IMG/VR virus record: IMGVR_UViG_3300025646_000204
Span: 1-31,248 of that record
DNA: 31,248 bases
Reading direction: 5' to 3' (one strand)
From: a virus
Below the pieces are notes generated by a model, which searched no databases, was not told the origin of the DNA, and saw nothing but the letters and a program-made list of their open reading frames with translations. Shown in pieces: positions 2,854 to 31,199 of this stretch. Positions within the stretch are counted from its first letter, which is position 1. Every line of letters starts with the position of its first letter. A program made the translations under genes and the position numbers.

Positions 2854-3837
2854 TTACAAATAACTAATTTCTCTAATGTTTGAGTGGTTTAATGAACATC
2901 GTCTAAAGCACGTTTTAGGATTATTTTTAGACCAAGATAATTCTAATAATTTAAAAATATCAGATTGTATAATTTCAACAAATGAATATTCTAATGCATT
3001 AAGTTTATTTAAATCGTTAAATTCAATTATATCATTAAGATATTCGTCATTTTTTTTTCTAAATGAACCTTCAGTATAGCAACAAGGGAATACTAATTTA
3101 TCAAATGAAAGATATATCCTTCTATATTTTTTAGCAAAACATTCTATTTTATTACTATAATTATAAACAATTTCCGGTGATATTTCAGCCTTTTCCAATA
3201 TATTTTTTAAACCATCCTCATAAAATATAAATTCTTTGGTATTTTTAAATCTGGCAGTATTATTAATAATAAATTTTGTAAAATTCATTTTTTTAGCCAT
3301 GTCTTTTGCTGATTCTATTTGATGTTCATTGTGTTTAAAAGGTATAAAAGACCATATTGAAATTGCTTTAGTATTATTAATATATGCAGCGGCATTTTCA
3401 ATAATTTTATTAAAATTAGTATGACGTCTATAAACACTATGAGTATCTTCTAATCCATCAATACCAAATATAACTGTATTATCAATATTACATGATAGTA
3501 TTTTACCTAATTCTTCCCACCAAGATTTTGTTTTTAAACCTCCATTTGTATGAATTGTAATTGTTATATCTTTTTTTGCAATATATTCTATTATTTTTAG
3601 AAAATCTTTTGTTGCTATTGGATCTCCCCAATTACCACAAAAATTATATGATTTTATGTACGGATTTTTATCCATTATAGTTTTAAAATCATAAAATGAA
3701 ATTTGAGTTTTGTTGTCTATTGAAGGTACAACATTATTTGGTTTTGTATTATTAATATTTGTTCTTGCACACATCGGACATGCCGCATTACAAATATTAC
3801 TTAATTCTAAATCAAGATGTATTGGAATATAATTCAT
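2854..3837 (-). CDS. radical SAM protein with C-terminal cysteine-rich (SPASM-like) region
   Basis: The 327-residue protein has the radical SAM cluster motif C16-x3-C20-x2-C23 (CNAACPMC), whose cysteines bind a 4Fe-4S cluster that cleaves S-adenosylmethionine. A GNWGDP motif (SAM-binding GGE-like), HTNG and GIDGLEDTH follow, as in the radical SAM TIM barrel. The C-terminus has FPCCYTEG and TCFRRC cysteines that could hold an auxiliary cluster, as in SPASM proteins. It is a close paralogue of the protein at 4231-5190, sharing CPMCARTNIN and NNTKA and FKHNEHQIE blocks. The start overlaps the GIY-YIG gene by 4 nt (ATGA). Very AT-rich compared with neighbouring core genes, suggesting lateral acquisition. 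Substrate unknown. Confidence 0.9.
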   Translation of the reverse strand: MNYIPIHLDLELSNICNAACPMCARTNINNTKPNNVVPSIDNKTQISFYDFKTIMDKNPYIKSYNFCGNWGDPIATKDFLKIIEYIAKKDITITIHTNGGLKTKSWWEELGKILSCNIDNTVIFGIDGLEDTHSVYRRHTNFNKIIENAAAYINNTKAISIWSFIPFKHNEHQIESAKDMAKKMNFTKFIINNTARFKNTKEFIFYEDGLKNILEKAEISPEIVYNYSNKIECFAKKYRRIYLSFDKLVFPCCYTEGSFRKKNDEYLNDIIEFNDLNKLNALEYSFVEIIQSDIFKLLELSWSKNNPKTCFRRCSLNHSNIREISYL

Positions 3838-4244
3838 TTTAATAAACTTTGAACGTGAGCCCTATGGATTTTACAATTGATAATACCATTATAATAGTTA
3901 TCATCTAGAAGAACATTTCTGGCAAATTGTTCTTTTGCTTCTAAATATCCCATTTCGCCTTTTGTTCTACAAAGATATAATATTTCTCTGTGAAAATTTT
4001 GCTCGCCGTGTTCTTGAAGTAGTTGTTTTACCATGTCTGATGAACCGTAATAGCTTTGCCAATCAGATTCAACAATGGATCTTCTTTTACGAGTTTTACC
4101 TTTTAATGGAGGTAATGTTTTTTTGGACCAAAAGCCTTTTTTGCCAATATACATTTTACCATTGGATTTATCTGTAATAAGATAAACAAATCCTTGATAG
4201 CCTTCAGGTGGTTGTTCTAAAACTTTATTATTATAATACCACAT
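3834..4244 (-). CDS. GIY-YIG family endonuclease (Seg-like homing endonuclease candidate)
   Basis: The 136-residue protein has the GIY-YIG nuclease core: GFVYLI (residues 18-23, the GIY strand), MYIGKK (31-36, the YIG strand), and a downstream glutamate in YLEAKEQF (residue 102) as the metal ligand. Conserved basic residues K46-R55 lie between. Small GIY-YIG proteins starting MWYYN with PPEG are common in T4-like phages and are usually called homing endonucleases. It lies exactly between two paralogous radical SAM genes, overlapping the upstream one by 14 nt and the downstream one by 4 nt. No separate Shine-Dalgarno is obvious, so translation may be coupled. Domain call is strong; homing activity is inferred. 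Confidence 0.87.
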   Translation of the reverse strand: MWYYNNKVLEQPPEGYQGFVYLITDKSNGKMYIGKKGFWSKKTLPPLKGKTRKRRSIVESDWQSYYGSSDMVKQLLQEHGEQNFHREILYLCRTKGEMGYLEAKEQFARNVLLDDNYYNGIINCKIHRAHVQSLLK

Positions 4245-5190
4245 TATTATTTACACTTCTACTATTTCTTGAACACACATTCCAACAAGCACTTGGTTTA
4301 CCATATTTCCATCTATTTTCAATTTCAGTCCATATCATTCCATCCATAATTTCATAAATTGAATATTTTTTTATATTAATTGTTTCTATTCCACATTTAT
4401 TTACTATATCGGATAAATCTGGATCATGTTTGTATCTAGAAGCAGTCCAACAACAAGGCCACAAATAACCTTCGGCTGAAAGATAAATACCTGATCTTTT
4501 TATTGCTTCACATTTTATTTCACCATAAATTTCAGATATTGTACTAAACTCAGCTTTTTCTATTATATTTAAATTATTGTTATCATAAAAACTTACTTTA
4601 TTATTTAAAGGAAATCTATTGGAATATCGACAATTAAAATTTGTAAATCCTATTTCTTTTGCTTTTATTTTTGCTAATTCAATTTGATGTTCATTGTGTT
4701 TAAAAACAAGATATTCCCAACTAGATTTTGCCTTGGTATTATTGATATATGCTTTTGCATTTTCAATAATTTTATCAAAATTGGTATTACGTCTATAAAT
4801 ATGGTGAGTATCTTCTAATCCATCAAGGGCAAATAATACTTTATTATTTGGATTTATGGATAATATATTACCTAATTTTTCAAAATAAGATGTTGTTTTT
4901 AATGATGCATTTGTATGAATAAAAATTTCAGTATTTTCATCGGCAATATATTCTACTATTTTTAGAAAATCTTTTGCAGATAAAGGATCACCATAATTAC
5001 CGGAAAATATATATTTTTTAAATTTAATATTATCAACTATTGATTTAAATTCATCAAATGTAATTTCGACATTTTTTACAAATTCTGTTGTTTTTGAAAT
5101 ATCATTAATATTTGTTCTTGCACACATTGGGCATTGTGCATTACATTTATCAGTTAATTCAATATGAATTTCCTTTGGTTCATAATACAT
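4231..5190 (-). CDS. radical SAM protein, paralogue of 2854-3837
   Basis: A 319-residue radical SAM protein. The chosen ATG (5188-5190) is five codons inside the longest frame. It has GGAG 9 nt upstream and places the cluster cysteines at C16, C20 and C23 (CNAQCPMC), exactly where the paralogue has them. Other shared blocks are SGNYGDP, FIHTNASLKT, ALDGLEDTH and FKHNEHQIE. C-terminal cysteines (LWPCCW, SACWNVCS) could bind an auxiliary cluster. The ribosome binding site lies inside an 11-bp hairpin, so initiation may be controlled. The gene is AT-rich and follows the nrdA/zinc-ribbon operon. Substrate unknown; peptide or nucleotide-sugar modification are guesses. Confidence 0.9.
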   Translation of the reverse strand: MYYEPKEIHIELTDKCNAQCPMCARTNINDISKTTEFVKNVEITFDEFKSIVDNIKFKKYIFSGNYGDPLSAKDFLKIVEYIADENTEIFIHTNASLKTTSYFEKLGNILSINPNNKVLFALDGLEDTHHIYRRNTNFDKIIENAKAYINNTKAKSSWEYLVFKHNEHQIELAKIKAKEIGFTNFNCRYSNRFPLNNKVSFYDNNNLNIIEKAEFSTISEIYGEIKCEAIKRSGIYLSAEGYLWPCCWTASRYKHDPDLSDIVNKCGIETINIKKYSIYEIMDGMIWTEIENRWKYGKPSACWNVCSRNSRSVNNNVVL

Positions 5191-5195
5191 AAAAA

Positions 5196-5221
5196 ATAAC
5201 TCCATATTTCTATGGAGTTAC
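5196..5221 (-). terminator. GAAA-capped hairpin plus U-tract, covering a ribosome binding site
   Basis: On the minus strand GTAACTCCATA-GAAA-TATGGAGTTAT forms an 11-bp stem (one G-U). It is followed immediately by TTTTTT, the layout of an intrinsic terminator after the zinc-ribbon gene. The 3' arm contains the GGAG used by the radical SAM gene starting at 5190, so the same hairpin could hide that site in read-through mRNA. Confidence 0.75.
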
Positions 5222-8572: not shown

Positions 8573-8942
8573 CGGTTTCCTCCAATATTCTTTCTCTGAG
8601 TCTTTGGACTCCACGATTAATTCTTTCTTCCATATCTACAGGATCTGCCAGTGCTTCACGTGTGATATCAATCTGTGATAGACGAGTTCTTAAACTTCCA
8701 ACTCTTGCTTCAGCTTCTTGTAAACGAGATTGCAATTGTGATTGTAATTGTGCATTTCGTGTTGCATCTGCTACCATACGATCTATAGTCGCCTGGTTCG
8801 TTGCTACGGTCTGTTCCAACAATACATTGTTTTCCCTTAGGGTATTAACTTGTTGCTGAAGTTGCGTTACATATGTGTATCCACCATAACCTATTGCGGA
8901 CACAGTACCGATAATGAATAAAAGTAAATAGAGTCGGATCAT
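8526..8942 (-). CDS. putative inner-membrane spanin subunit (Rz-like)
   Basis: The 138-residue product has one N-terminal membrane helix (residues 3-23, LYLLLFIIGTVSAIGYGGY). A long Q/R-rich coiled coil follows (about 26-90), then a C-terminal RINRGVQRLRERI segment, the classic i-spanin layout. Spanins fuse inner and outer membranes in the last step of lysis. The last 47 nt overlap the lipoprotein start. Its own start overlaps the PP-loop gene stop by 4 nt (ATGA), so it is translationally coupled to the operon that begins at 10837. Confidence 0.78.
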   Translation of the reverse strand: MIRLYLLLFIIGTVSAIGYGGYTYVTQLQQQVNTLRENNVLLEQTVATNQATIDRMVADATRNAQLQSQLQSRLQEAEARVGSLRTRLSQIDITREALADPVDMEERINRGVQRLRERILEETGGQMDSDTSGATSAQ

Positions 8943-9616
8943 TTTATTCCTCCGTCATAGCAATTAAATGCCCAATATTTTTCCTTACACCACATACATT
9001 TTTTACAAGGATTTCCTTTTGCATCAGGAGTTACACAAGATTTGGTAAGAGGAAATAAATTATTCATTAAATCAAATTTTTTATATTGAAATGCTAAAAA
9101 TTTTTTATCAACATGTATAAAAAGGCTTCTTTTTTCTTGCATATCGTTTTCATTATAATTTCGTTCTTTTGTAATAGAACCAAGATTAATTTTATCAAAT
9201 AATGGGGCACTTGTCATTCCACTGATGGAAGTATCTATTAACCCTTTTTCTAATTTATCTACAATAGGTTTTATATATTTATTTTTTTTGATTATAATTG
9301 GTGAATCAAAATCTTTTTTATATTTTATGATATAAGGATCTAATATATTTATTTTAGGATAGCTATCGCGAATAAATTCTAGTATTTTTAAAAAATGAAA
9401 TTTTGTATTAAAAGGAAATCCTAAGTCAACCGCATGAACAGGTAACAATATATGACTATTATGTAAATTTAAATCGTCAATACATTTAGCTAGCCACCAT
9501 AATAAAAATGACGAATCAGTTCCTCCAGAACATATACAACCAATATTTTCATATTTTTTTAAAAAGGATTCAGTTTTATCTACCACTAAACCTCTATCAT
9601 CATATAATATTGTCAC
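8939..9616 (-). CDS. PP-loop ATPase, QueC-like (7-cyano-7-deazaguanine synthase-like)
   Basis: The 225-residue protein has an N-type ATP pyrophosphatase P-loop, SGGTDS (residues 30-35). Its C-terminal cysteine set, C194-x9-C204-x2-C207-x2-C210, matches the zinc site of QueC. QueC makes preQ0 from carboxydeazaguanine; in phages it can feed queuosine or deazaguanine DNA modification. No other pathway gene (FolE, QueD, QueE, a transglycosylase) is visible here, so the substrate is uncertain. It starts at GTG overlapping the upstream stop (GTGA). The gene is AT-rich, like the radical SAM genes, suggesting lateral origin. Fold call is solid, exact reaction is not. Confidence 0.8.
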   Translation of the reverse strand: MTILYDDRGLVVDKTESFLKKYENIGCICSGGTDSSFLLWWLAKCIDDLNLHNSHILLPVHAVDLGFPFNTKFHFLKILEFIRDSYPKINILDPYIIKYKKDFDSPIIIKKNKYIKPIVDKLEKGLIDTSISGMTSAPLFDKINLGSITKERNYNENDMQEKRSLFIHVDKKFLAFQYKKFDLMNNLFPLTKSCVTPDAKGNPCKKCMWCKEKYWAFNCYDGGIK

Positions 9617-10901: not shown

Positions 10902-12827
10902 TTACTTATCAACTCCAGCTTTTTTAGAAGCTCTACTCAAATGGGAATAACCTTTTTTAATATCCGGATATTCTTTAGAAAATTCTGATGCGGCTTTATT
11001 AACATCCTTTGAAACAGCTTGTGCAGTTTTTGCTGAACCGGTTGCTCTTTCAATACCTTTTTTTCTATTTGCAATACTTCTATCTAGATCTTTATCTTTA
11101 CTAGTTATAGCACTTGTATGACTAGTTCTATATTTTTGAGGTATATTTCTTGCTGTTTTTAGATTTGCTAAAGAGGGTGACTCTGGTTCATCCTTATCAC
11201 TACCAATTGCTTTTTTTAGATAATTTTTCTTTGCTTGTTGAGAAATTTCAGAAATTTCAGAATTTTGTTTTTCCAACATTTCTGCATATGCTTCTTTAAT
11301 TTTTCTTACAAAATTATCCATAATCTTTGATCCTACGTTTGATTGTGTTGATTTAATGATATTCTTATCACCAGTTTTTTGATCACCAGTACGATTCATA
11401 CCACCGCCCGGTTTGATTCCATCCGTAGCATGCTTTGCAGTATATTCTGCAGCTTTTTCTCCATCAATGCCTGAATCATTACCCTTCAATTCACCATGTG
11501 GTGCAAGGAAAGCTTTATCAGAAGCAGTTAATTTCGCATCCATGGTTTCTGGTGGTGTTGCGCCTTTGTAATGCATTGCGCGATCATTTGCTTCTTTAAT
11601 ACGTGCATATACCGGCCAAGTAGTAGTTTCAGTCTTAAAGCTTTCTTTTGTAGTTAAAAGATTATTGGTCATTTTAAGTGCATCATCTACTGATTCCATT
11701 GCCTGTTTAGTTGCAGTGGCATACATTACATCTTTCCAACGAGAACCGTATCTCTTTTCAAGATCTGCTTTATTCTTTTTCATACCCATTACAATGTCTT
11801 CACGCTTTTTCTTTTCAGCAGCAGTCATTTCTCTTTCGACAATAACTTCTTTTTGCACCTGAAGCTTTTCTCTCATTGACAAGTTTTCGACTTCCTCATT
11901 CATTTTTTTATAGGCACTGTATGCACCTTCGGTGTCTTTATGAAGGGCAGGAGTATCTGAATCGTTTCCTCCATGTTTTTTGGCCAGTGCTGCATGCTGA
12001 GCCGCTTGTTTTGAATGATATACTGCTTTTCTTAAGTGTTTTTCATTTCTAGTTTTTTCATATCTTGTAAGATGCTCATGAGCATCATGATGATGCTCTG
12101 AAGCTTTCTCGTGGTGTTCACCTGCAGGTGTGCCATGGTGTTCATCGGCTGCGGATGAATGATAATGTGCTGCGGCTTTATGGCCGAGATGGGCGTGAAA
12201 GCCATCACTGTTAGGCTTTTTAGGTCCATCAATAGCAGCGGAAACGAGATTGTGATGATGTGAAAAATGCATAGATTTTTGAAATACACTTGCACCCTTA
12301 CGCAATGTATCTGAGGCGGCAGGTTTTTCTTTTTTGCCTAAAATCTTTTTAACGCCAGATTTGACTTTATCCATCAAACCTTCATCAAGTTCAACTTCCT
12401 CTTTTACAGCACCTGGCTTCCACTTGTTAATGTGATCTCCCGTCTTTGGCATCTTACCACCAGTTTCCTTTGCAGTCACAGTGTACCTATTACCGTTATT
12501 AGTAACAATAGTCATTGTGCCTTTATCGGATGACATGGCATTAATATGATGAGGGTTTTTGCCCTTATATGACTTAGCCATTTTAGCACGATGAGCATCA
12601 GAATATGCTTCTTCAACTTCTTCTTTTTTCATAGCAGTCTTAACGGCTTTACGACGATTGTGTAGGTACTCGTCAGACTTATCAACATCGCCATCATTGT
12701 CGATGTCTTTATCTTTACGCTGAGCGTGAGTTCCCTTTAGCTCATCTGGATTAACTGGATCCATTTTTGCCTTTTCCTGCACCTGCATGTAAGCAGACGC
12801 AATATTTTTAATATCTTGAGTCTTCAT
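10902..12827 (-). CDS. large putative internal head protein, His-rich, with VELDE cleavage-type site
   Basis: The 641-residue protein is very hydrophilic and modular. Residues 41-55 (DIDNDGDVDKSDEYL) form an EF-hand/dockerin-like calcium loop. EEVELDEG at about 144-150 fits the (I/L)-x-E consensus of T4 prohead protease gp21. A His-rich stretch follows (about 180-270, many HH and HHH). AEKKKREDIVMGMKK with RYGSRWKDVMYATATK in the middle is a block shared with many marine phage virion proteins. The C-terminus is basic. The ribosome site is AAGGAGAG. Internal placement in the head is inferred from the cleavage-like site, composition and operon neighbours; no enzyme motif is seen. Confidence 0.72.
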   Translation of the reverse strand: MKTQDIKNIASAYMQVQEKAKMDPVNPDELKGTHAQRKDKDIDNDGDVDKSDEYLHNRRKAVKTAMKKEEVEEAYSDAHRAKMAKSYKGKNPHHINAMSSDKGTMTIVTNNGNRYTVTAKETGGKMPKTGDHINKWKPGAVKEEVELDEGLMDKVKSGVKKILGKKEKPAASDTLRKGASVFQKSMHFSHHHNLVSAAIDGPKKPNSDGFHAHLGHKAAAHYHSSAADEHHGTPAGEHHEKASEHHHDAHEHLTRYEKTRNEKHLRKAVYHSKQAAQHAALAKKHGGNDSDTPALHKDTEGAYSAYKKMNEEVENLSMREKLQVQKEVIVEREMTAAEKKKREDIVMGMKKNKADLEKRYGSRWKDVMYATATKQAMESVDDALKMTNNLLTTKESFKTETTTWPVYARIKEANDRAMHYKGATPPETMDAKLTASDKAFLAPHGELKGNDSGIDGEKAAEYTAKHATDGIKPGGGMNRTGDQKTGDKNIIKSTQSNVGSKIMDNFVRKIKEAYAEMLEKQNSEISEISQQAKKNYLKKAIGSDKDEPESPSLANLKTARNIPQKYRTSHTSAITSKDKDLDRSIANRKKGIERATGSAKTAQAVSKDVNKAASEFSKEYPDIKKGYSHLSRASKKAGVDK

Positions 12828-12837
12828 TTGTCTCTCC

Positions 12838-13119
12838 TTACATCCAGATATTTGCTGCTATTGCTGCTGATGCAGCTGCTATTGCAATCCAGAATAGTTT
12901 GTTAATTGTATTCACAGTATGTGCATTATCATTTACGACTTTTTCAATGGCATCCAATTTCTCAGAAAATCGATTCATTCTTTCATATTGTGCAGCATGC
13001 TTAGACTCTAATGCAATGAGCTTTTCTTCTGCTCTTGCCATTAGAATCATAGCATCTGATAATTTATCAATCTTTTCTTCAATACGATCAAGTCGTGAAC
13101 TAGTTGTGTCAGTAGCCAT
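12838..13119 (-). CDS. coiled-coil protein with C-terminal membrane anchor
   Basis: A 93-residue product starting MATDTTSSRLDRIEEKIDKL, with a helical coiled coil (about 8-70) and one C-terminal membrane segment (LFWIAIAAASAAIAANIWM). The ATG at 13117-13119 is preferred: a TATAAATA late promoter at 13133-13140 would start transcription near 13127, after the more upstream ATG at 13131. GGGAAG precedes it. Tail-anchored small proteins of this type are widespread in marine T4-like phages. Function unknown; a lysis or membrane role is possible. Confidence 0.75.
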   Translation of the reverse strand: MATDTTSSRLDRIEEKIDKLSDAMILMARAEEKLIALESKHAAQYERMNRFSEKLDAIEKVVNDNAHTVNTINKLFWIAIAAASAAIAANIWM

Positions 13120-13132
13120 TGAACTTCCCATT

Positions 13133-13140
13133 TATTTATA
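13133..13140 (-). promoter_or_regulatory. T4-type late promoter
   Basis: TATAAATA on the minus strand, the T4 late -10 consensus, located just after the stop of the 13146-13457 gene and before the tail-anchored protein gene. Confidence 0.75.
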
Positions 13141-13145
13141 GTTAT

Positions 13146-13457
13146 TTACCACTTAACTTTATCTGCCCAATAGGCGGCAGACATCTTACCTTTTGCAATA
13201 TTTCTTGCATGACGTGCTTTAAATGATTTACGTCTTGCTCTTTCACGGTCTGACTCACCTTCTTTTGCAGGAGAGCCTGATACACCTTGCTGACCAAATC
13301 TAATAGTTTTAATTTTATCGCCTTCTTTGGCAACTACAATATGACTGCTCTTAGGATGGCTTGGTGTTCTTTTAGGTTTATTAAAACCTTCCACACCAGC
13401 TGCTTTAACACGAGGATCTTTTTCCTCTGCTAGCATATATTCTTTAAACTTAATCAT
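13146..13457 (-). CDS. small basic protein with capsid-targeting-like N-terminus (DUF5872-like)
   Basis: 103 residues. The N-terminus MIKFKEYMLAE ends in L-A-E, like T4 internal-protein capsid-targeting sequences cut by gp21. The body has the conserved block SHIVVAKEGDKIKTIRFGQQG and an ending ARHARNIAKGKMSAAYWADKVKW, a small family found in phages and other large DNA viruses (DUF5872 from memory). It is basic and lacks cysteines. It overlaps the upstream gene by 4 nt and is last of a coupled run from 18661. Function unknown; packaging in the head is inferred. Confidence 0.75.
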   Translation of the reverse strand: MIKFKEYMLAEEKDPRVKAAGVEGFNKPKRTPSHPKSSHIVVAKEGDKIKTIRFGQQGVSGSPAKEGESDRERARRKSFKARHARNIAKGKMSAAYWADKVKW

Positions 13458-14221
13458 TTGTTACCACGCATTTGTGCAAGAGAACGTTGAGTTGAAGTCA
13501 TGGTCTTTGTTGGAAGCTTTCGGCCGGTCTTTACAGATACACCCATACCTTTTGCATGTTCAGCATCCTTCTGACGTTGCATTTTAATGAAGTCACCCTT
13601 CAATTTAGGTGCAGCTTCATCAATATTTTCTTCAGTTTTTAAACCAACTTTCATACCACCATATTGTTTATTTGTAATACCTTTTGCAGTCATGCTTGGA
13701 CGGGATTTACCAAGTTGGTCTTTCTTTTTATCAGCATCAATTTCTGCTTGTGTAGGCTTTGTATATTTCTTTGTTTGGCGTTCTTTATCTAACATTCTTT
13801 GAATGGAACCAATATGGCCAGGACCATATAACTTAGCTTCTTTCATTTCTTTTTCATCATCTTCTTTGTCTTCGTCTTCATCATCTTCATAATCGCCAGC
13901 TAAAACAGCATGCATATCCTTGGCTTTTTCATGAAGGCCAGAAAGCTTATTCTGCATCCACTCAGGAAATTCTTTATTCTTATTTAAATATTCGGTAATC
14001 TCTTCACCAACGTACTTTAAGAACTTAGCCTGATCTAATGCCATAGATTTTTCATCCTGAGAAGCAGGCATATCATCTTCAGCTTGCTCAGTTTTAATAA
14101 TTTTACGAACAACTGGCACCATACGAATCTTTGGCTTACCATCTGGACCTATATAGGTTTCAGGTTTCTTATCGGCTGAATTAACTGAAGCAGCTTCTCT
14201 TAATTCAAAAAAGCTTTTCAT
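13454..14221 (-). CDS. putative internal head protein with acidic linker and IDE cleavage-type site
   Basis: 255 residues beginning MKSFFELREAAS, a capsid-targeting-like start with L-R-E at 7-9. There is an acidic tract at 110-124 (YEDDEDEDKEDDEKE), then a basic half. ENIDEAAP (199-205) is a second (I/L)-x-E site. The gene overlaps its neighbours by 1 and 4 nt. No catalytic motif was seen. Packaged internal protein is an inference from the N-terminus, cleavage-like sites and operon. Confidence 0.72.
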   Translation of the reverse strand: MKSFFELREAASVNSADKKPETYIGPDGKPKIRMVPVVRKIIKTEQAEDDMPASQDEKSMALDQAKFLKYVGEEITEYLNKNKEFPEWMQNKLSGLHEKAKDMHAVLAGDYEDDEDEDKEDDEKEMKEAKLYGPGHIGSIQRMLDKERQTKKYTKPTQAEIDADKKKDQLGKSRPSMTAKGITNKQYGGMKVGLKTEENIDEAAPKLKGDFIKMQRQKDAEHAKGMGVSVKTGRKLPTKTMTSTQRSLAQMRGNK

Positions 14222-14997
14222 TATTCATGATCCCCCTGGTCCTTACCGATTGCATGTTTAAGATGATCAAAAGTCGGATGATTTTTTTTATTATAATCCA
14301 AATGATTATGTGCAAAATCTCTAAGCTTTTCTTTATCACCAGTCAATCTAACTCTATAATAACCAGGTTGTGTTGAATGAAGAGCATGAGCTTTTATCCC
14401 AGCTTTTTTATAATGATCGCGGTTCTTGCTACCATCATCATGATACTCAGAACGCGCGTTCGGATGTGGCATATCATTAACCTCGAGCGACCCATGACCA
14501 GTTGGTAATTTTTTAGTTTCAGTTAATTCTTGTCTTATGTCCTTAAAACTTTTCATGTTAGTTTCCTTTATTCCGAACATTGCCTGATATTTTTTGGTAT
14601 GTGTTGAAGGTTTTGTTTCTGCTCTTGCATCCCCAGGCGCTGGTTCGTATGCTCTTGGATCTCTGTCAGATAACTTATCTGCCTTTCTCCAATGTGCTTT
14701 TCTTTTTGCAATGGTAGATTTACTTAAACCTTTGAAATAATTTTCACCTTCGGCCATAGTTTCTTCACTACGAAGATCTTTATCAGCACCGTGATAGGTA
14801 CCTTTACCTTTGGTCACATATGAATTAACTCTTGCTAAACCCCACTGAGCTGGTGTAGTACCAGGACGATGACCTGAATTCCAAGCAGCAACACCTCTAC
14901 GATATACCTTCATAAGAGTACCATATGGCATACCTGATGCTTCGGCTTTTTTACGAACCGCAGCATTTTCAGCTATAAAATCGTTAAACTTAATCAT
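14221..14997 (-). CDS. two-part putative internal head protein with internal start (DUF5824-like N-terminus)
   Basis: 258 residues that look like two proteins joined. Part one begins MIKFNDFIAEN, nearly the T4 capsid-targeting sequence with I-A-E at 8-10. It contains a module KKAEASGMPYGTLMKVYRRG and HRPGTTPAQWGLARVNSY, then a DPRAYEPAPGDARAETKPSTHTKK block common in marine phage virion proteins (DUF5824-like, from memory). At residue 148 a second N-terminus-like sequence begins, MKSFKDIRQELTET, whose ATG (14554-14556) has AAAGGA 8 nt upstream. Thus a shorter 111-residue product may also be made. It overlaps both neighbours by 1 nt. Confidence 0.75.
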   Translation of the reverse strand: MIKFNDFIAENAAVRKKAEASGMPYGTLMKVYRRGVAAWNSGHRPGTTPAQWGLARVNSYVTKGKGTYHGADKDLRSEETMAEGENYFKGLSKSTIAKRKAHWRKADKLSDRDPRAYEPAPGDARAETKPSTHTKKYQAMFGIKETNMKSFKDIRQELTETKKLPTGHGSLEVNDMPHPNARSEYHDDGSKNRDHYKKAGIKAHALHSTQPGYYRVRLTGDKEKLRDFAHNHLDYNKKNHPTFDHLKHAIGKDQGDHE

Positions 14998-16148
14998 TAC
15001 TTGGTTTCCTGATTCTGCTGTTTGGCTTTTAAAAGTCTTGCTCTATCCATAATTTGGTCATGTCTACGAGCAGCAATTTCTTTCTGTCTTTGTACACGAA
15101 GTTTTGCTGCATCAATAGGATCTTTTTGTTCTATATTTAGTGTTTTAGGATAACCCTTATCACCAGGTTTTAGCCTTGGTTTACCAGCTGCGCGTCTCTT
15201 ACGAATATTAGCCCAAAGACTTTCTTCCATCTCACCTGGAGTAGCTTTTTTCCATTTCTTGGTAGCTTCTGGTGTACCCCAGTCAGGCTTATCTTTGTAC
15301 ATAGACTTTTTATTATCTTGTTCAACTATTTTCTCAACAGCATCTAACCAATAACGAGAGCGTTTACCTTCGGATGATTCTACAATAACATAATTGGATC
15401 CAAGTACAACAATTGTACCTACCTCATCCGTCTTTTTAATAATAACACTTTCACCAAGATCAAATAACTGACCTTTTACAAATGATTCACGTGTTAATGA
15501 TATAGGATCTAATTGTACGTGATTCCTAAATGTCTTTTCTTCTTTAAGGCCCATACCTTTACGAACATCATTAAAAAGTCTACGTGCGTCTTTGGTATTC
15601 ATAGCAATTGGAAGACCTTGAGAGAATTTAATAAAGTCATTGGCTGAAGCATAACCGCGCTGTTTAGTTCCAGAAGCACCTTCAGCACCTTCAGCATCCG
15701 GGTCTCTTTCACCAGCAGAAATAATCTTTATACCATCTTTAAAGTTATAGAAACCGTGGCCGCCTTCTTTGCCATTATAATTATTTAAACGCAAGTCATA
15801 TTCATTAATACGGTCTGAACCAGCAACCATTATAACCTTACGATAACCTTCATTATATAAAGCAGTCAGCGCATCAAATGGTGTCCTAACTTTTTTATTA
15901 ATCATTACATTACGTGCATGTTTTGGAAACATCTTACGAACGCTTTTAATCTTATCAGAATATTGTAATGGATTCTTTTTAGGATCTTGTGATTGAGACA
16001 AGAATACTTTGTATGGATTACGTCCAGCTATAGACGCAAGTTTATCTAATAACTTACCATGACCAATTGTTGGAGGATTCATTCTACCAAAGGTAAAATA
16101 AACAACCCTTTCCTCTTCAATAAGGTAATTCTTAAACGAATTAATCAT
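14997..16148 (-). CDS. cytidylyltransferase-like nucleotidyltransferase with capsid-targeting-like start
   Basis: 383 residues. After an N-terminal MINSFKNYLIEEE (L-I-E at 9-11), the protein enters a nucleotidyltransferase domain. FTFGRMNPPTIGH (residues 18-30) matches the NMN/pantetheine adenylyltransferase signature GRFxPxHxGH, except the first His is Thr (TIGH). Further conserved strands are MINKKVRTPFDAL and KVIMVAGSDRINEY, and ASGTKQRGYASANDF corresponds to the ISxT-type loop. The C-terminal 120 residues are basic. It transfers nucleotidyl groups in the named families; the phage substrate (NMN, phosphopantetheine or other) is unknown. It overlaps the upstream gene by ATGA. Packaging is inferred from the N-terminus. 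Confidence 0.8.
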   Translation of the reverse strand: MINSFKNYLIEEERVVYFTFGRMNPPTIGHGKLLDKLASIAGRNPYKVFLSQSQDPKKNPLQYSDKIKSVRKMFPKHARNVMINKKVRTPFDALTALYNEGYRKVIMVAGSDRINEYDLRLNNYNGKEGGHGFYNFKDGIKIISAGERDPDAEGAEGASGTKQRGYASANDFIKFSQGLPIAMNTKDARRLFNDVRKGMGLKEEKTFRNHVQLDPISLTRESFVKGQLFDLGESVIIKKTDEVGTIVVLGSNYVIVESSEGKRSRYWLDAVEKIVEQDNKKSMYKDKPDWGTPEATKKWKKATPGEMEESLWANIRKRRAAGKPRLKPGDKGYPKTLNIEQKDPIDAAKLRVQRQKEIAARRHDQIMDRARLLKAKQQNQETK

Positions 16149-17431
16149 TTATCTTCTTTATCTGCTCTACGTTCTTTATCTAATTTTCTAACTTTAGGCA
16201 TAAGTTTTATTGCAAGGCGCTTAATACGACCTCTCATTTTCTCCATACGTTTTTCAATTTCTTGTTTACGCTGTGGAGGTACTTCATCTCTTGATAGACC
16301 TTTTGCAAGTCTACGGAAGATAGCATTTCTAGCTGCTTTTTCAGCACGTGTTTTAAGACGCTTAGGATCGGCTGCTCTTTTTAGAACTCTTTTACGGCTG
16401 ACCTCAATCTGACGCCGCTTGAGTTTCATCTTACGGCCACGAGCACGTCTTTGCTGAAGGTTCAATGCTTCATCAACTTCTTCTGTCTCTTCAACAATTT
16501 TGATACCAGCTTTCTTTCTCCAGTCTGAACCATACTTAGAACGAAGCATACTATGATCTGCTTTGAGTTTCATACCAGCTGCTAGACCCATAGGCTCATC
16601 ACGCTTCAATTGCTTATGCACATCATGGGCTAGTTTCTTATGTGTTGCAGTCATTGCTTCATCAAGTTCTACTTCTTCATTAAAATGCTTAGTAACTAAT
16701 TTCTTAGCATCTTCGTGAGAATTCAGTCTTTCATGTCTATGAATGTTTTTACTGCCTTTGGGTATACTATCAGTTTTATATTGAATTACGTGATAACCTT
16801 CTGGTCTCCCATTTCTTGGATGATGTTTGCCGATAGAACCAACAAACTTGTTCTTATGAAAAATATCAGTAACTTTGCTTCCGTCTTTAAAAGTTTTATC
16901 GTGAAACTTTAATTCTTCATCAAGCTCAACTTCTTCTTTTTTCATAAGACGATTGTATGATTGACCAGCTTTTTTCTCTGCTTTATTAGCTGCTTTGGTA
17001 TGAGCAAATGCCTTCATCATATCAGGTTCATCCACTGCTTTTTGGCGTAGATTTGAAGCCTGTGCCTGTCTTGCTTTTGCTACCTTATGTGCTAGAGCTT
17101 GTGATACTTCATCAAGCTCTGCTTCCTCACCAGTAAATTGGAAAACATGAACATGTCTTCCTTTTTTGGAACCTGGGTCTTTTATTGTTTTATGTTTACC
17201 AGTGTAACCCATGCCAACATTCTTAGCATGGGTTCCTAGTTCAATAGGATCTGTTGTTTTTTCACCAATGGTATCTATCTGATCTTCAGGTGAGTACCTG
17301 GAAGAATATTCTGCATTTGTACCAGCACCAGTATCACCTTTACGCTTCTTAGCGTTTTTCTTAATTAGATCAGGCATGCCTGGTGCATAGTCTACAGTAA
17401 GGAAATCTTTAAAGTCAAGTTTTTTAGCCAT
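16145..17431 (-). CDS. putative internal head polyprotein with three VELDE/AELDE sites and basic tail
   Basis: 428 residues of segments joined by near-identical linkers: GEEAELDE (101-108), KEEVELDE (165-172) and NEEVELDE (251-258), plus TEEVDE near 321. Each L-D-E fits the gp21 prohead-protease consensus (I/L)-x-E. Cutting there would give pieces of about 108, 64, 86, 63 and 107 residues. The last piece is extremely basic (QQRRARGRKMKLKRRQ onward) and resembles a DNA-binding protein family of marine phages. The middle piece (173-258) is compact with FKDGSKVTDIFHKNKFVGSIGKH. Its N-terminus MAKKLDFKDFLTVDY only partly resembles the capsid-targeting motif. Head-internal role inferred. Confidence 0.75.
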   Translation of the reverse strand: MAKKLDFKDFLTVDYAPGMPDLIKKNAKKRKGDTGAGTNAEYSSRYSPEDQIDTIGEKTTDPIELGTHAKNVGMGYTGKHKTIKDPGSKKGRHVHVFQFTGEEAELDEVSQALAHKVAKARQAQASNLRQKAVDEPDMMKAFAHTKAANKAEKKAGQSYNRLMKKEEVELDEELKFHDKTFKDGSKVTDIFHKNKFVGSIGKHHPRNGRPEGYHVIQYKTDSIPKGSKNIHRHERLNSHEDAKKLVTKHFNEEVELDEAMTATHKKLAHDVHKQLKRDEPMGLAAGMKLKADHSMLRSKYGSDWRKKAGIKIVEETEEVDEALNLQQRRARGRKMKLKRRQIEVSRKRVLKRAADPKRLKTRAEKAARNAIFRRLAKGLSRDEVPPQRKQEIEKRMEKMRGRIKRLAIKLMPKVRKLDKERRADKEDK

Positions 17432-18661
17432 TTATTTTCTTCCTGGTTTATCCCATCCCTTTAATATATCAGGTGAGAAATTGTTGTAGGAAAATTCCAT
17501 CCTATCAACAATTTTCACCGCATCACCACCGAGAGTATCAATAGCAACAAAGCCTTCAGCGCCGGTTACCTTGAATCCATTACGAGTTTTTACAAAAGTT
17601 TGTATACTTTGTAATTTATTTAAACTATTTATAAGTTTTAATTTAGCAAAAACTATCACTTTTTGTAAATCAAAAATACGTTTTAAGTTTATTTGATTCT
17701 CGTCGGAAAAGAAAGTTAAGATTTCGTCGAGCTTTTTTTGGCCGGCGGACTTGCCTTTCTCGGTTTTCTTGGCGTTGATTTCTTTTTGGTACTTGGCTTT
17801 GATCCACTTAATGAGGCCTGATACGTGTCTTCCTGTATCTCCAATGATTTCGCCTCGTCTAACAAAGGTGTTGTTGTAGGTTTCAATGAGCTGAGCGAGT
17901 TGTCCGTTTCGTTCCAGCTCTCTGAGTGTGGATCCTGCGATTTGGTTAAATAGTTTACCAGCCTGCGAAAGATATTCATTCACTTCCTCCGTTTCTTTTT
18001 TACTCATAGTTGCTTTGGTTAAATCCCTTAGCATAGCATCTTGTGACCATACATTTCGAGATTGTTTAAACATGCTTACATCAACTCCGTATGATGCACG
18101 CATGGATTCAAATGTATTACCTGTATATGTAGTGTGCCAGACAATACCGATTTTAGCAGATTTAATAGTTTTTGCTTCTTTTGAATTAGCAGGTACTGCA
18201 TATACAATTGTATTAGGATGAAAAGTTAAATACTTCTCACCTTTAATTATACTTGTAGATAAATCGCCTGGTCCGAAGAGAAAGTCTCCTTGAACCACAC
18301 CCTTGATTCCAAGCTCTGGCAAATACTCGAGGGCAGCTTTGAGCTTAGAAGCAAGATCACCAGAAGTATCAGCATCAATGTCAGCTGGAGATTTATAGAC
18401 TTTAGGATTTTTGTTGAATATGCCCTTCTTGGCAACAAAAAATTGACCATCACTCGGGTCAATACCAGCAAAAATAGCAGGAGCGCCATCCCATTTAACA
18501 GAGATACTTCCATCGTGCGATCCTTTTAACATATCTCTTAATTCACGTAAGGCATTTATTGCCTGGCGTGTTCCATTTACACCACCATAAAGGACTTTGT
18601 CCTCAATGTGAGTCATGTGGGTATTTTTTTCTTCGGTTATGTATGAGCTAAACTTTTCCAT
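17432..18661 (-). CDS. KxDG nucleotidyltransferase/ligase-like protein (DUF6267-like)
   Basis: 409 residues. The start MEKFSSYITEE has the capsid-targeting-like I-T-E (8-10). SVKWDGAPAIFAG (K56-W-D58-G59) matches motif I (KxDG) of covalent nucleotidyltransferases such as DNA/RNA ligases. Candidates for later motifs are GVVQGDFLFG (121-130, motif III), EGFVAI (369-374, motif IV) and AVKIVDR (381-387, motif V). The 180-360 region would be a helical insertion. The family, which I recall as DUF6267, is widespread in T4-like marine phages with no assigned function. The stop is directly followed by the polyprotein gene. Ligase activity is a motif-level inference. Confidence 0.8.
   Translation of the reverse strand: MEKFSSYITEEKNTHMTHIEDKVLYGGVNGTRQAINALRELRDMLKGSHDGSISVKWDGAPAIFAGIDPSDGQFFVAKKGIFNKNPKVYKSPADIDADTSGDLASKLKAALEYLPELGIKGVVQGDFLFGPGDLSTSIIKGEKYLTFHPNTIVYAVPANSKEAKTIKSAKIGIVWHTTYTGNTFESMRASYGVDVSMFKQSRNVWSQDAMLRDLTKATMSKKETEEVNEYLSQAGKLFNQIAGSTLRELERNGQLAQLIETYNNTFVRRGEIIGDTGRHVSGLIKWIKAKYQKEINAKKTEKGKSAGQKKLDEILTFFSDENQINLKRIFDLQKVIVFAKLKLINSLNKLQSIQTFVKTRNGFKVTGAEGFVAIDTLGGDAVKIVDRMEFSYNNFSPDILKGWDKPGRK
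17626..17633 (-). promoter_or_regulatory. intragenic late promoter candidate
   Basis: TATAAATAG on the minus strand inside the 3' part of the ligase-like gene, about 195 nt before the polyprotein gene starting at 17431. It could supply late expression of the head-protein operon, whose only other nearby promoter is early-type. Confidence 0.5.
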
Positions 18662-20052: not shown

Positions 20053-20073
20053 GAATGGAATATTTTTCCATTA
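20053..20073 (-). other. intergenic hairpin without U-tract
   Basis: AATGGAA and TTCCATT on the minus strand form a 7-bp stem just after the stop of the nuclease-like gene. An A-rich rather than U-rich sequence follows, so it probably stabilises or separates messages rather than terminating. Confidence 0.4.
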
Positions 20074-20760
20074 TCTCATACCATGCTTTTTACCTAATAA
20101 TTCTGCATGTTTATCAATATCAACTGACGAAGGTTTGTGATCCTTTAAAACAAATGTCACAAGCGATCCATATCCTTTTTTACCTGTCTTTTTATTAGTA
20201 CCACGATATTTCATTCTAGCACGAAATTGTGTTTTGCCATTTAGTTCAGGAACTCCTAAACGACCTTCATCGTTACCCATATGATGAAGACCTGATTTAC
20301 CAATTTGTATATATGGAGTTTTTCTATCTTTACCATAATGATCCTTGATGGGATCTGTATTAGGATGATCTTTATAAATATTGCCCATCTTCAGATCTGT
20401 ATCATAATCACCAGATGGTTTTTTCCATTTTTTATTTACATCTGGTAGAAAATGTCTTTCAATATGAGCCGCAGTTTTAGGATATTTATTTTTAGAACGA
20501 TCACCAATGTGCCAACCTTTTTCATCACTATATTTAAGTTCTAATTGTCCCATCATAGCACTTTTATCTTTTTTAATTTCAAGATTATGATGTTTACCGC
20601 CAGCATGAATGGTTCCGTCTGGAGCATCAGCTGATGAACCAGCACTTCTTACATTTTCAGGTTGTAGGCCGTATTGTTTAAGTTTGGCATTAACAACATC
20701 TTCATAATCAAAACCGCCTTTTGCGGCTTTTTCGGAAAGATATTTTCTAAAAGATAACAT
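20071..20760 (-). CDS. PD-(D/E)XK-like nuclease with capsid-targeting-like start
   Basis: The chosen ATG (20758-20760), with GGGGT 6 nt upstream, gives MLSFRKYLSEKAAKG, whose L-S-E (8-10) fits the capsid-targeting pattern. The body shows a PD-(D/E)XK arrangement: a helical Glu20 (FDYEDVVNAKL), AGSSADAPD (P47-D48), LEIKKD (E61-x-K63) and MMGQ (Q72). This is the active-site order of many Mg2+-dependent nucleases. The C-terminal half (HHMGNDEGRLGVPELNGKTQFRARMKY) is a second conserved part. About 229 residues. DNA cleavage is inferred from motif geometry only. A late promoter (20791) drives it. Confidence 0.75.
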   Translation of the reverse strand: MLSFRKYLSEKAAKGGFDYEDVVNAKLKQYGLQPENVRSAGSSADAPDGTIHAGGKHHNLEIKKDKSAMMGQLELKYSDEKGWHIGDRSKNKYPKTAAHIERHFLPDVNKKWKKPSGDYDTDLKMGNIYKDHPNTDPIKDHYGKDRKTPYIQIGKSGLHHMGNDEGRLGVPELNGKTQFRARMKYRGTNKKTGKKGYGSLVTFVLKDHKPSSVDIDKHAELLGKKHGMR

Positions 20761-20790
20761 CAGTGACCCCATATTTGAATAGATTTATTA

Positions 20791-23832: not shown

Positions 23833-23909
23833 TGGTCTCGGTGGAGAGATTCGAACTCCCGACCCTCTGGTCCCAAACCAGATGCTCTACCAAGCTGAGC
23901 TACACCGAG
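23833..23909 (-). tRNA. tRNA-Pro (UGG)
   Basis: 77 nt with encoded CCA. Acceptor CTCGGTG/CACCGAG, A73, anticodon loop TTTGGGA, T-loop TTCGAAT. A late promoter lies 12 nt upstream. Confidence 0.95.
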
Positions 23910-29364: not shown

Positions 29365-29441
29365 TGGTGCTCCCACCAGGACTCGAACCTGGAACCTACC
29401 CGTTATGAGCGGGGAGCTCTGACCAATTGAGCTATAAGAGC
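29365..29441 (-). tRNA. tRNA-Met or tRNA-Ile2 (CAU)
   Basis: 77 nt with encoded CCA. Acceptor GCTCTTA/TGGGAGC (two G-U), anticodon loop CTCATAA, A73. The G1-C72 pair excludes initiator Met. Elongator Met or lysidine-type Ile cannot be told apart by sequence alone. Confidence 0.93.
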
Positions 29442-29442
29442 T

Positions 29443-29534
29443 TGGTAGGAGTGCAGGGATTCGAACCCCGTCGAGAACGCTAATCTGGCGCTGAAAGGCT
29501 TATAAGGCCTCCCTGTGTACCAACACCCACTCCC
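29443..29534 (-). tRNA. class-II-like tRNA with apparent UAU anticodon (unusual)
   Basis: 92 nt with encoded CCA, one nt from tRNA-CAU. Acceptor GGGAGTG/CACTCCT (first pair G-U), T-arm CGGGG-TTCGAAT-CCCTG. The anticodon stem GAGGC/GCCTT encloses loop CTTATAA, so the anticodon is UAU. A 24-nt variable arm follows, which is normal for Leu, Ser or Tyr but not Ile. The D-arm is short (about 3 bp, TTGGTA loop). Amino acid identity cannot be assigned confidently. Confidence 0.75.
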
Positions 29535-29535
29535 G

Positions 29536-29670
29536 TTATTTGTTTTTTAGATAATCAATACGTAGTTGAATCCATTTTTGAACTTCAGGAGGAACATTTT
29601 TATTTACTTTAATATAAGACAAATAAAGTTCTAGGCCTAGGAGTTCTGAGTATTCATTACTAGATTTCAT
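29536..29670 (-). CDS. small hypothetical protein in the tRNA cluster
   Basis: 44 residues, MKSSNEYSELLGLELYLSYI to YLKNK, with NKNVPPEVQKWIQLRIDYL like small phage helical proteins. A weak TAGAG precedes the ATG. The stop lies 1 nt before the class-II-like tRNA. Confidence 0.6.
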   Translation of the reverse strand: MKSSNEYSELLGLELYLSYIKVNKNVPPEVQKWIQLRIDYLKNK

Positions 29671-29685
29671 TGTACACTCTAAAAT

Positions 29686-29768
29686 TGGTGCGGGCACCCG
29701 GACTCGAACCGGGACGCACTAGGCAACAGATTTTAAGTCTGTCGTGTCTACCATTTCACCATGCCCGC
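29686..29768 (-). tRNA. tRNA-Leu (UAA)
   Basis: 83 nt with encoded CCA. Acceptor GCGGGCA/TGCCCGC, anticodon stem CAGA/TCTG with loop CTTAAAA, long variable arm, A73. Confidence 0.95.
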
Positions 29769-29774
29769 GTTCGA

Positions 29775-30137
29775 TTAGCCAGCAGAGCGAGTCACAAAGT
29801 TGACACGAACTTTTTTTGGATTAAAGTATTTCTGGATTGTATCCTGAGCAATACCAATATCAACAGGCTTACAAGAGAAAATATCAAAGTATCCATCACC
29901 ATTTGCATCAACCAAATGACCAGAAATATTGCTAGTCTCAATCATCTGACAAAAACTGATACCAGCCTTGTCAGCGGCATGGGTAGCAAAGTGTTCGATC
30001 ATTGGTTCACCAAAAGCAATCATGTCAATTGCAGGAACCAATTCCTTGATAAAGTTATAAACGTTTTCTTTAGATGTAATTTTATCAATGTCGCAGGCTG
30101 CGCAGTCGAACATTGCGTGATAACCCCAATATGCCAT
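29775..30137 (-). CDS. speD: SpeD-like pyruvoyl decarboxylase (AdoMetDC family)
   Basis: 120 residues from the ATG at 30135-30137 (AGGAG 9 nt upstream), MAYWGYHAMFDCAACDID. It matches the small phage/bacterial S-adenosylmethionine decarboxylase family by QMIETSNISGHLVD with FDIFSCK. The serine (S69) that would become the pyruvoyl group, the following His (H74) and Cys (C89) are kept. The residue before the serine is Thr rather than the usual Glu. Phage relatives may act on ornithine or arginine, so substrate is open. Sits between two tRNA-Leu genes. Confidence 0.85.
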   Translation of the reverse strand: MAYWGYHAMFDCAACDIDKITSKENVYNFIKELVPAIDMIAFGEPMIEHFATHAADKAGISFCQMIETSNISGHLVDANGDGYFDIFSCKPVDIGIAQDTIQKYFNPKKVRVNFVTRSAG

Positions 30138-30170
30138 TAATGATTCTCCTATAAAAATGACAAAGTTTAT

Positions 30171-30253
30171 TGGTGCCCTTGGAGGGACTTGAACCCCCAC
30201 GCCGAAGCAACAGATTCTAAGTCTGCCGTGTCTGCCAATTTCACCACAAGGGC
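30171..30253 (-). tRNA. tRNA-Leu (UAG)
   Basis: 83 nt with encoded CCA. Acceptor GCCCTTG/CAAGGGC, anticodon stem CAGA/TCTG with loop CTTAGAA, long variable arm, A73. Confidence 0.95.
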
Positions 30254-30261
30254 AATATTAA

Positions 30262-30504
30262 TTAAGCATCACTATTTCCGAAGAAATAATTGATGATAGT
30301 AGAAACTGCTGTACCAAGTAAGAAACCAAGAATAATATTGGCAAAGTTTTCACCTGACGTTGGTACAGTGAGGAAAGTAATAGCAAAGAAATAGACTACG
30401 CTAACAATACCCCAGAACCATGCAAACCAATATGTAAAGTGAGTTGCAACTTTATCACCACGTTTTACCAATTCTTCATGTAGATTAGAATTTTCATCAG
30501 TCAT
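30262..30504 (-). CDS. two-helix membrane protein, holin candidate
   Basis: 80 residues. A charged N-terminus MTDENSNLHEELVKRGDKVA is followed by two hydrophobic helices: YWFAWFWGIVSVVYFFAITF and ANIILGFLLGTAVSTIINYF. They are separated by a short loop with PTSGEN; the size and layout fit class II holins. AAAGGG upstream supports the ATG. No sequence motif defines holins, and it is far from the endolysin. It could instead be a membrane protein of unknown role. Confidence 0.7.
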   Translation of the reverse strand: MTDENSNLHEELVKRGDKVATHFTYWFAWFWGIVSVVYFFAITFLTVPTSGENFANIILGFLLGTAVSTIINYFFGNSDA

Positions 30505-30526
30505 GTGTTACCCTTTATAAAAACGG

Positions 30527-30602
30527 TGGTGCTGTAGGAGAGATTCGAACTCCCGACCTGATGATTACTAATCAACTGCTCTACCAACTGAGCTACTACA
30601 GC
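30527..30602 (-). tRNA. tRNA-Thr (AGU), A34 unusual
   Basis: 76 nt with encoded CCA. Acceptor GCTGTAG/CTACAGC, anticodon loop TTAGTAA so anticodon AGU. One T-T mismatch occurs in the anticodon stem (28-42). D-arm and T-arm canonical. A34 is rare in bacteria outside Arg-ACG. Confidence 0.85.
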
Positions 30603-30605
30603 ATT

Positions 30606-30681
30606 TGGTGGGAGATAAGAGACTCGAACTCCTGACATCTTCGGTGTAAACGAAGCGCTCTACCAACTGAGCTAATCTCCC
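30606..30681 (-). tRNA. tRNA-Val (UAC)
   Basis: 76 nt with encoded CCA. Acceptor GGGAGAT/ATCTCCC, anticodon stem CTTCG/CGAAG with loop TTTACAC, A73. Confidence 0.95.
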
Positions 30682-30682
30682 A

Positions 30683-30859
30683 TTATTTCTTTTTCATCAA
30701 CTTAGCTTTCAGATCATCAGCTGCTGAAGACTTAGGCTTAGGTTGTTCTTTAACTTCTATTTCAGGCTCAGAATAATTATCTGAATCACCTTTATCTATC
30801 ATCTTTCTCATAGCATCTATACGAGCCTGGATTTCATCTATTCTAGATTTTAAATCCAT
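30683..30859 (-). CDS. small hypothetical protein in the tRNA cluster
   Basis: 58 residues, MDLKSRIDEIQARIDAMRKM and onward, N-terminal coiled-coil heptads, then an acidic linker (DSDNYSEPEIEVKEQ) and basic end (KAKLMKKK). AAGGAG 7 nt before the ATG. Lies between tRNA-Asp and tRNA-Val. Not recognised. Confidence 0.72.
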   Translation of the reverse strand: MDLKSRIDEIQARIDAMRKMIDKGDSDNYSEPEIEVKEQPKPKSSAADDLKAKLMKKK

Positions 30860-30874
30860 TGAAAGACTCCTTAA

Positions 30875-30949
30875 TGGCGACCTTATGGGGAATCGAACCC
30901 CAATTTCCCGGTAGACAGCCGAGCGTAATAACCACTATACCATAAGGCC
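30875..30949 (-). tRNA. tRNA-Asp (GUC)
   Basis: 75 nt with encoded CCA. Acceptor GGCCTTA/TAAGGTC (one G-U), loop CTGTCTA, G73 as expected for Asp. Confidence 0.94.
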
Positions 30950-30954
30950 ATTAT

Positions 30955-31029
30955 TGGAGCGGATAACGGGATTCGAACCCGTGACCGTCTGCTTGGCAAG
31001 CAGAAGCTCTACCTCTGAGCTACATCCGC
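30955..31029 (-). tRNA. tRNA-Gly (GCC)
   Basis: 75 nt with encoded CCA. Acceptor GCGGAT-type, anticodon stem CTGC/GCAG with loop TTGCCAA, U73. Confidence 0.95.
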
Positions 31030-31036
31030 AAATATT

Positions 31037-31117
31037 TGCTAATACTCACGTATGACTTGTATTAGCACATCTAGCATTATTACGCCGTCTCACTTCTTTA
31101 TGGAGCCGAAGCTAGAT
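31037..31117 (-). ncRNA. candidate structured RNA in tRNA cluster
   Basis: Between tRNA-Ala and tRNA-Gly the minus strand can form two helices. ATCTAGC/GCTAGAT (7 bp) encloses 35 nt. TGCTAATAC/GTATTAGCA (9 bp perfect) has a 13-nt loop. No tRNA or ORF fits. It may be a stable RNA, a processing element or a degraded tRNA. Confidence 0.45.
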
Positions 31118-31123
31118 TGTAAT

Positions 31124-31199
31124 TGGTGGAGAATAGCGGGATCGAACCGCTGACCTACTGCTTGCAAAACAGTCGCTCTCCCAACTGAGCTAATTCCCC
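31124..31199 (-). tRNA. tRNA-Ala (UGC)
   Basis: 76 nt with encoded CCA. Acceptor GGGGAAT/ATTCTCC (one G-U), loop TTTGCAA, A73. Confidence 0.94.

Follow-up and report, generated by a model that had tools for sequence, protein, structure and literature searches.

A 428-residue protein encoded on the minus strand of a 31,248-nucleotide virus fragment (IMG/VR record IMGVR_UViG_3300025646_000204; the whole of this stretch is referred to here as the window) is probably a head-internal polyprotein, in which small modules occupy a slot between a conserved N-terminus and a basic tail, gp21-type cuts would be made at L-D-E linkers, and the parts would be packaged and probably ejected. The protein and its relatives are modular, with an open slot whose content varies, many module edges marked by linkers that obey the gp21 rule, and targeting sequences at the start of several genes in the same cluster. 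Comparison with related phages gives strong support to the L-D-E linkers as predicted prohead-protease sites in such a polyprotein. We found no account of linkers of this type in the open-access literature, which was the scope of the search.

The 428-residue protein and its linkers

The window carries gp32-like, ribonucleotide reductase and tRNA genes (the ribonucleotide reductase genes being named from sequence and position) and is from an aquatic T4-like myovirus. Elsewhere in it, radical-SAM paralogues at 2854-3837 and 4231-5205 flank a SegE-like GIY-YIG endonuclease gene (3834-4244) that may be a mobile intruder, and the product of 8939-9616 is an ATP-pyrophosphatase-like protein whose similarity to QueC is weak and under the Pfam cut-off. 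Nine tRNA genes are densely arrayed among small ORFs at 29365-31199, and a tenth (Pro) lies apart at 23833; the tRNA-Thr has the anticodon AGT.

The polyprotein ORF (16145..17431, minus strand, as are all the window features described below) begins with ATG. The three near-identical linkers of the original prediction are real: GEEAELDE (EEAELDE at 17108..17128), KEEVELDE (EEVELDE at 16916..16936) and NEEVELDE (EEVELDE at 16658..16678) end at residues 108, 172 and 258, the predicted cut positions, and at all three the L-D-E conforms exactly, as had been proposed, to the L/I-X-E rule for gp21 cleavage (PMC9026906). A fourth, VEETEEVDE (EETEEVDE at 16469..16492), ends at residue 321 ahead of the basic tail; its P3 is V and the cut there is uncertain. 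EExELDE occurs in three copies, compared with 0.00005 per sequence in composition-preserving protein shuffles. Cleavage after all four linkers would yield five fragments of 108, 64, 86, 63 and 107 residues.

Inspection by eye agrees with the earlier claim that the segments following the linkers are mutually unlike. Segment 2 (residues 109-172; 16916..17107), segment 3 (residues 173-258; 16658..16915; a low-confidence beta prediction) and segment 4 (residues 259-321; 16469..16657) each lacked relatives in a close-relative search of IMG/VR, and the three together had none among 50,697 phage records. A weak resemblance of segment 4 to the KYG module spans 15 alignment columns, and the identification was rejected. 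No Pfam domain, peptidase domains included, was found in the protein, and its sole strong PHROGs match, to phrog_23027 (function unknown), is at the basic tail.

That tail, a basic helical module of 107 residues (322-428; 16148..16468), has 42 K+R against 13 D+E, a pI of 11.8 and a net charge of +29, bearing out the prediction of an extremely basic C-terminal fragment; the other fragments have pI values of 6.9-9.6. The same module is a stand-alone gene in phages HTVC008M (gp142) and C48C1 (CDS0088). AlphaFold2, supplied with input rows from the window and IMG/VR sequences only, was confident for the helical tail alone (core pLDDT up to ~92, with a whole-protein mean of 51.8). Fold searches with this largely low-confidence model returned nothing significant from the PDB, and three matches at E<=0.001 from BFVD, among them an uncultured-phage cytidyltransferase protein, and so yielded no firm assignment. 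Homology of the tail to T4 gp68 was considered and is unsupported (hhalign probability 1.3). On the strength of its charge, the tail may bind or coat DNA.

An open slot among the orthologues

The window protein and 46 IMG/VR homologues make up an orthologue set of 47 distinct proteins, nearly all of which share the same N-terminus and basic tail. The middle region is shorter or different in all 46 homologues, and the distance from N-terminus to tail, 290 aa in the window protein, is 7-124 aa in homologues that have this N-terminus. The slot is nearly empty in some orthologues; elsewhere it holds the HVHVF module (residues 64-98 of the window protein, 17138..17242; also in IMG/VR contigs L002, L004 and L181), a CW module (L167, L203), a cysteine-rich stretch (L184) or other modules (L135, L137). 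The proteins of L139 and L137 have flanks identical but for one residue, and L137 carries a single clean 70-aa insert that starts with EEVEGLDE, is directly followed by EEVEETDE, and is edged by a near-perfect 12-nt repeat, GAAGAGGTCGA(A/G). The insert in L135 has L-D-E at both edges and recurs in L007 after I-D-E. From these two cases it follows that the sites travel with modules and are not conserved positions. The expectation that the ELDE sites would be conserved across homologues, whose failure had been named in advance as a refutation, was accordingly not borne out: the three sites are missing from every orthologue listed, because the segments that they flank are absent, a pattern that fits module gain and loss and does not refute the polyprotein reading.

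At boundary 4 the glutamate is kept, with P3 among the 47 proteins being T in 20, V in 14, A in 5 and L in 4; an exact [ILVM]xE is present in only 11 of 30 distinct contexts, and the V-D-E of the window protein falls outside the L/I-x-E rule. Cutting at this boundary is therefore doubtful, helix capping being a reasonable alternative there, and the view that put its support on a par with that of sites 1-3 was dropped after this survey. More generally, the virion protein might have several domains and stay uncut, the linkers being acidic, flexible spacers or helix caps ahead of the next domain, and their likeness arising from composition and capping and not from recognition by a protease. The conserved part of boundary 4, D-E followed by A-L with T or V at P3, is what a helix cap would show, all of the linkers are E-rich, and polyvalent proteins, the N4 virion RNA polymerase for one, are packaged without being cut (PMC5512222). 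We nevertheless regard this explanation as unlikely, given that at other module starts P3 is I or L, P1 is E and P2 is free, and that the same pattern closes N-terminal targeting sequences, where a spacer would be needless.

Module boundaries in related phages

The DUF5824 module is found in two settings: as a gene of its own, after a targeting sequence (MIKFNDFIAE/N in the window, the slash separating P1 from P1'), and as part of a larger protein, after a linker, which is DIEIDE/T in HTVC008M gp130 and EEVQICE/T in IMG/VR contigs. [ILVM]xE precedes 60 of its 62 starts (null 0.19). The 44 distinct contexts comprise 21 at N-termini and 23 within proteins; in them P3 is I (27), L (12), M (4) or V (1), P2 is any of nine different residues and P1' is mostly S, T, A, N or G. 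The motif likewise precedes 21 of 27 starts of the CW module (null 0.18), 20 of 23 of VYV (0.14) and 8 of 9 of LWANI (0.15); all of these counts, those for DUF5824 included, overstate independence because the contexts are related by descent and are not independent events. Arbitrary comparison starts in the same proteins came out near the null or lower (KSTS 7/37, KYG 1/7, EFh 0/9). We relied on these named-module tests in place of an all-versus-all breakpoint test, which was noisy (strong linker 0.11 versus 0.036). Among the carriers of the DUF5824 module are proteins of 1,343-1,503 aa encoded by IMG/VR contigs L028 (5934-9965), L089 (1512-5624) and L029 (3074-7585), those of L028 and L089 also containing cytidylyltransferase, basic and other modules.

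There are 104 strong linkers, where shuffling gives 15, and the leucine codons at their P3 position are diverse, roughly following background, which together place the conservation at the protein level. Both this diversity and the variation of synonymous codons among linkers, GTT/GTA and GAG/GAA in the 428-residue ORF for example, tell against the linkers being mainly recombination footprints, that is, short DNA homologies used for module swaps and kept by gene conversion and not for protein function; so does the occurrence in other lineages of I-C-E or L-Y-E in an unchanged pattern. We therefore hold that explanation to be quite improbable, in spite of the repeat at the edges of the L137 insert and of the CTT GAT GAA that is common to all L-D-E linkers of the window despite their synonymous differences elsewhere. 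Recombination at the linkers could, however, operate alongside cleavage.

Targeting sequences in the gene cluster

T4 internal proteins are brought into the head by a 10-residue N-terminal sequence, in which residues 4 and 7 are responsible for targeting and residues 8 and 10 govern processing by gp21 (PMC9026906). Judged by this rule and by the homologue set, the N-terminal MAKKLDFKDFLTVD of the 428-residue protein (17390..17431) resembles a targeting sequence (F..F L) without the x-E cut. The core FKDFLxVD, FKDFLTVD in the window, is present in 46 of the 47 proteins, and the cleavable I/L-x-E version that characterizes the capsid-targeting sequence (CTS) of T4 internal proteins is found in none of the 47; the precursor may thus be targeted differently.

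The gene belongs to a dense minus-strand cluster that also encodes one DUF6267 and one DUF5824 protein, a cytidylyltransferase and several unknowns, and that resembles clusters of Pelagibacter phage HTVC008M, Syn9, S-SM1 and S-CREM2 in content and in proximity to nrdA/nrdB. Targeting sequences begin the DUF6267 protein (17432..18661; MEKFSSYITE), the cytidylyltransferase (14997..16148; MINSFKNYLIE), the 258-aa DUF5824-module protein (14221..14997; its sequence is given above), a 103-aa protein (13146..13457; MIKFKEYMLAE) whose family recurs as the fused VYV module of L089, and a 233-aa protein (20071..20772; MLSFRKYLSE at residues 5-14). Internal sites are also present: MEE/S (15222..15230) precedes the LWANI module at the C-terminus of the cytidylyltransferase, a 255-aa protein (13454..14221) has EENIDE/A at residues 197-202 (13616..13633), and a 641-aa protein (10902..12827), a second putative polyprotein, contains EEVEE/A and EEVELDE/G, the latter (within KEEVELDE) at residues 143-149 (12381..12401). 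Inside the 258-aa gene, an in-frame ATG preceded by a Shine-Dalgarno-like AAAGGAA opens MKSFKDIRQELTE/T (14518..14556), which may be either a relic targeting sequence left after fusion or a second, internal start. As a general rule, a fusion-scar origin of internal targeting sequences was rejected, with 4 observed and 4.6 expected.

The targeting pattern is found in 5 of 10 cluster genes (null 0.19, with a maximum of 2 in 500 shuffles) compared with 1 of the 38 other genes of the window, although it was drawn up after the N-termini had been seen; a scan of T4 genes is therefore the fairer check, and among 64 of them it picked out ipII and ipIII only. Across loci, 39 of 54 cytidylyltransferases and 31 of 52 DUF6267 proteins have the pattern (null about 0.04), and over the whole of two large contigs it is only modestly in excess, although the matches cluster together.

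Protease and virion evidence

A Peptidase_S77 prohead protease is encoded by all nine large records, T4 included, and is missing only from two fragments of <75 kb; no prohead protease gene lies within the 31-kb window. The HTVC008M capsid protein has AFLGE aligned with the FLTE site of T4 gp23, and S-CREM2 has LLTE/A. The cytidylyltransferase of S-SM1 (gp190) has been found in virions by mass spectrometry (PMC3037559), as have that of S-CREM2 (gp154) and S-CREM2 gp160 (PMC10665884). The authors of the S-CREM2 study allow that enzymes of this kind could instead be preparation contaminants. The two cytidylyltransferases begin with MKKFSAFLNE/AE (gp190) and MKNFSSFLTE/AD (gp154), and gp160 (12343-13236 of the S-CREM2 record, L111) consists of a CW-like module, an EETEISE/G linker and then another module. 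These published reports bear on the presence of relatives of cluster members in virions, not on their cutting. A non-virion role for the 428-residue protein, early or regulatory, with linkers that serve a host protease or nothing, would suit the position of the cluster beside nucleotide-metabolism genes and away from capsid genes, and is very improbable in the light of the virion members in cyanophages with the same cluster position and of the targeting-sequence N-termini. A polyprotein cut by the prohead protease, the core of the original prediction, is favoured by the module edges, the protease of the relatives and the virion data for those relatives; it is qualified at the fourth site, which is off the rule, and in the conservation of the ELDE motifs.

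Discussion

The closest parallels are the T4 internal proteins IPI-III, which resemble the cluster genes in having a short N-terminal F/Y..F/Y-L/I-x-E signal with the same cut rule, and which are small packaged basic proteins cut by gp21, as is predicted here. Whereas each of these is single and small with one propeptide, here there are several modules per chain, and internal linkers would replace the propeptide cut. By analogy, the 428-residue protein would work like several T4 internal proteins joined in a single chain, without the cleavable targeting sequence.

Polyvalent proteins (Iyer et al. 2017, PMC5512222) are similarly multidomain, mosaic, and predicted to be packaged in the head and injected, and their authors likened them to polyproteins. 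The 428-residue protein shares with them the mosaic chain of unrelated domains, given the varying slot content of its orthologues, but not the recognizable effector or peptidase domains; they often have their own metallopeptidase or assemblin-like domain, whereas none was found in this chain, for which a prohead protease acting in trans is the likely agent. The head proteins of phiKZ and SPN3US also undergo several x-x-E prohead-protease cuts per protein (PMC9026906, PMC10052503), although those cuts remove and shred propeptides, whereas in the 428-residue protein they would separate unrelated domains. The virion cytidylyltransferase of cyanophages (T4-GC190) and HTVC008M gp126-gp143 represent the same gene cluster, with DUF5824, basic and other modules in common; in HTVC008M the basic module stays a stand-alone gene, whereas three further segments are present in the window gene.

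We propose that the conserved N-terminus acts as a capsid-targeting sequence that is not removed and brings the protein into the prohead core. Comparison of the orthologues shows that small unrelated modules enter the slot between it and the basic tail, often together with a linker of the E-E-x-x-L-D-E type. In the prohead, a gp21-type Peptidase_S77 would cut each L-D-E on the C-terminal side of its glutamate (residues 108, 172 and 258), and possibly V-D-E at 321 likewise, and the small domains so released would be packaged with the DNA, to which the tail might bind, and probably be ejected into the host. The neighbouring genes would belong to this packaged set too, with one module or several each.

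Whether this extends to a general system of plug-in head cargo in aquatic T4-like phages, in which any small domain inserted together with an E-E-x-x-L/I-x-E linker can be co-packaged, cut free and delivered, we judge to be an even question. If it does, cargo would evolve through module swapping at the linkers, in polyproteins of >1,300 aa among others, and one head could load and release many different proteins in T4-like phages that are very abundant in marine and freshwater environments. I/L-x-E at module edges would then serve as a sequence rule by which the unknown phage proteins that are first into the host could be predicted, and the system would provide a ready list of small cargo domains that possibly fold independently.
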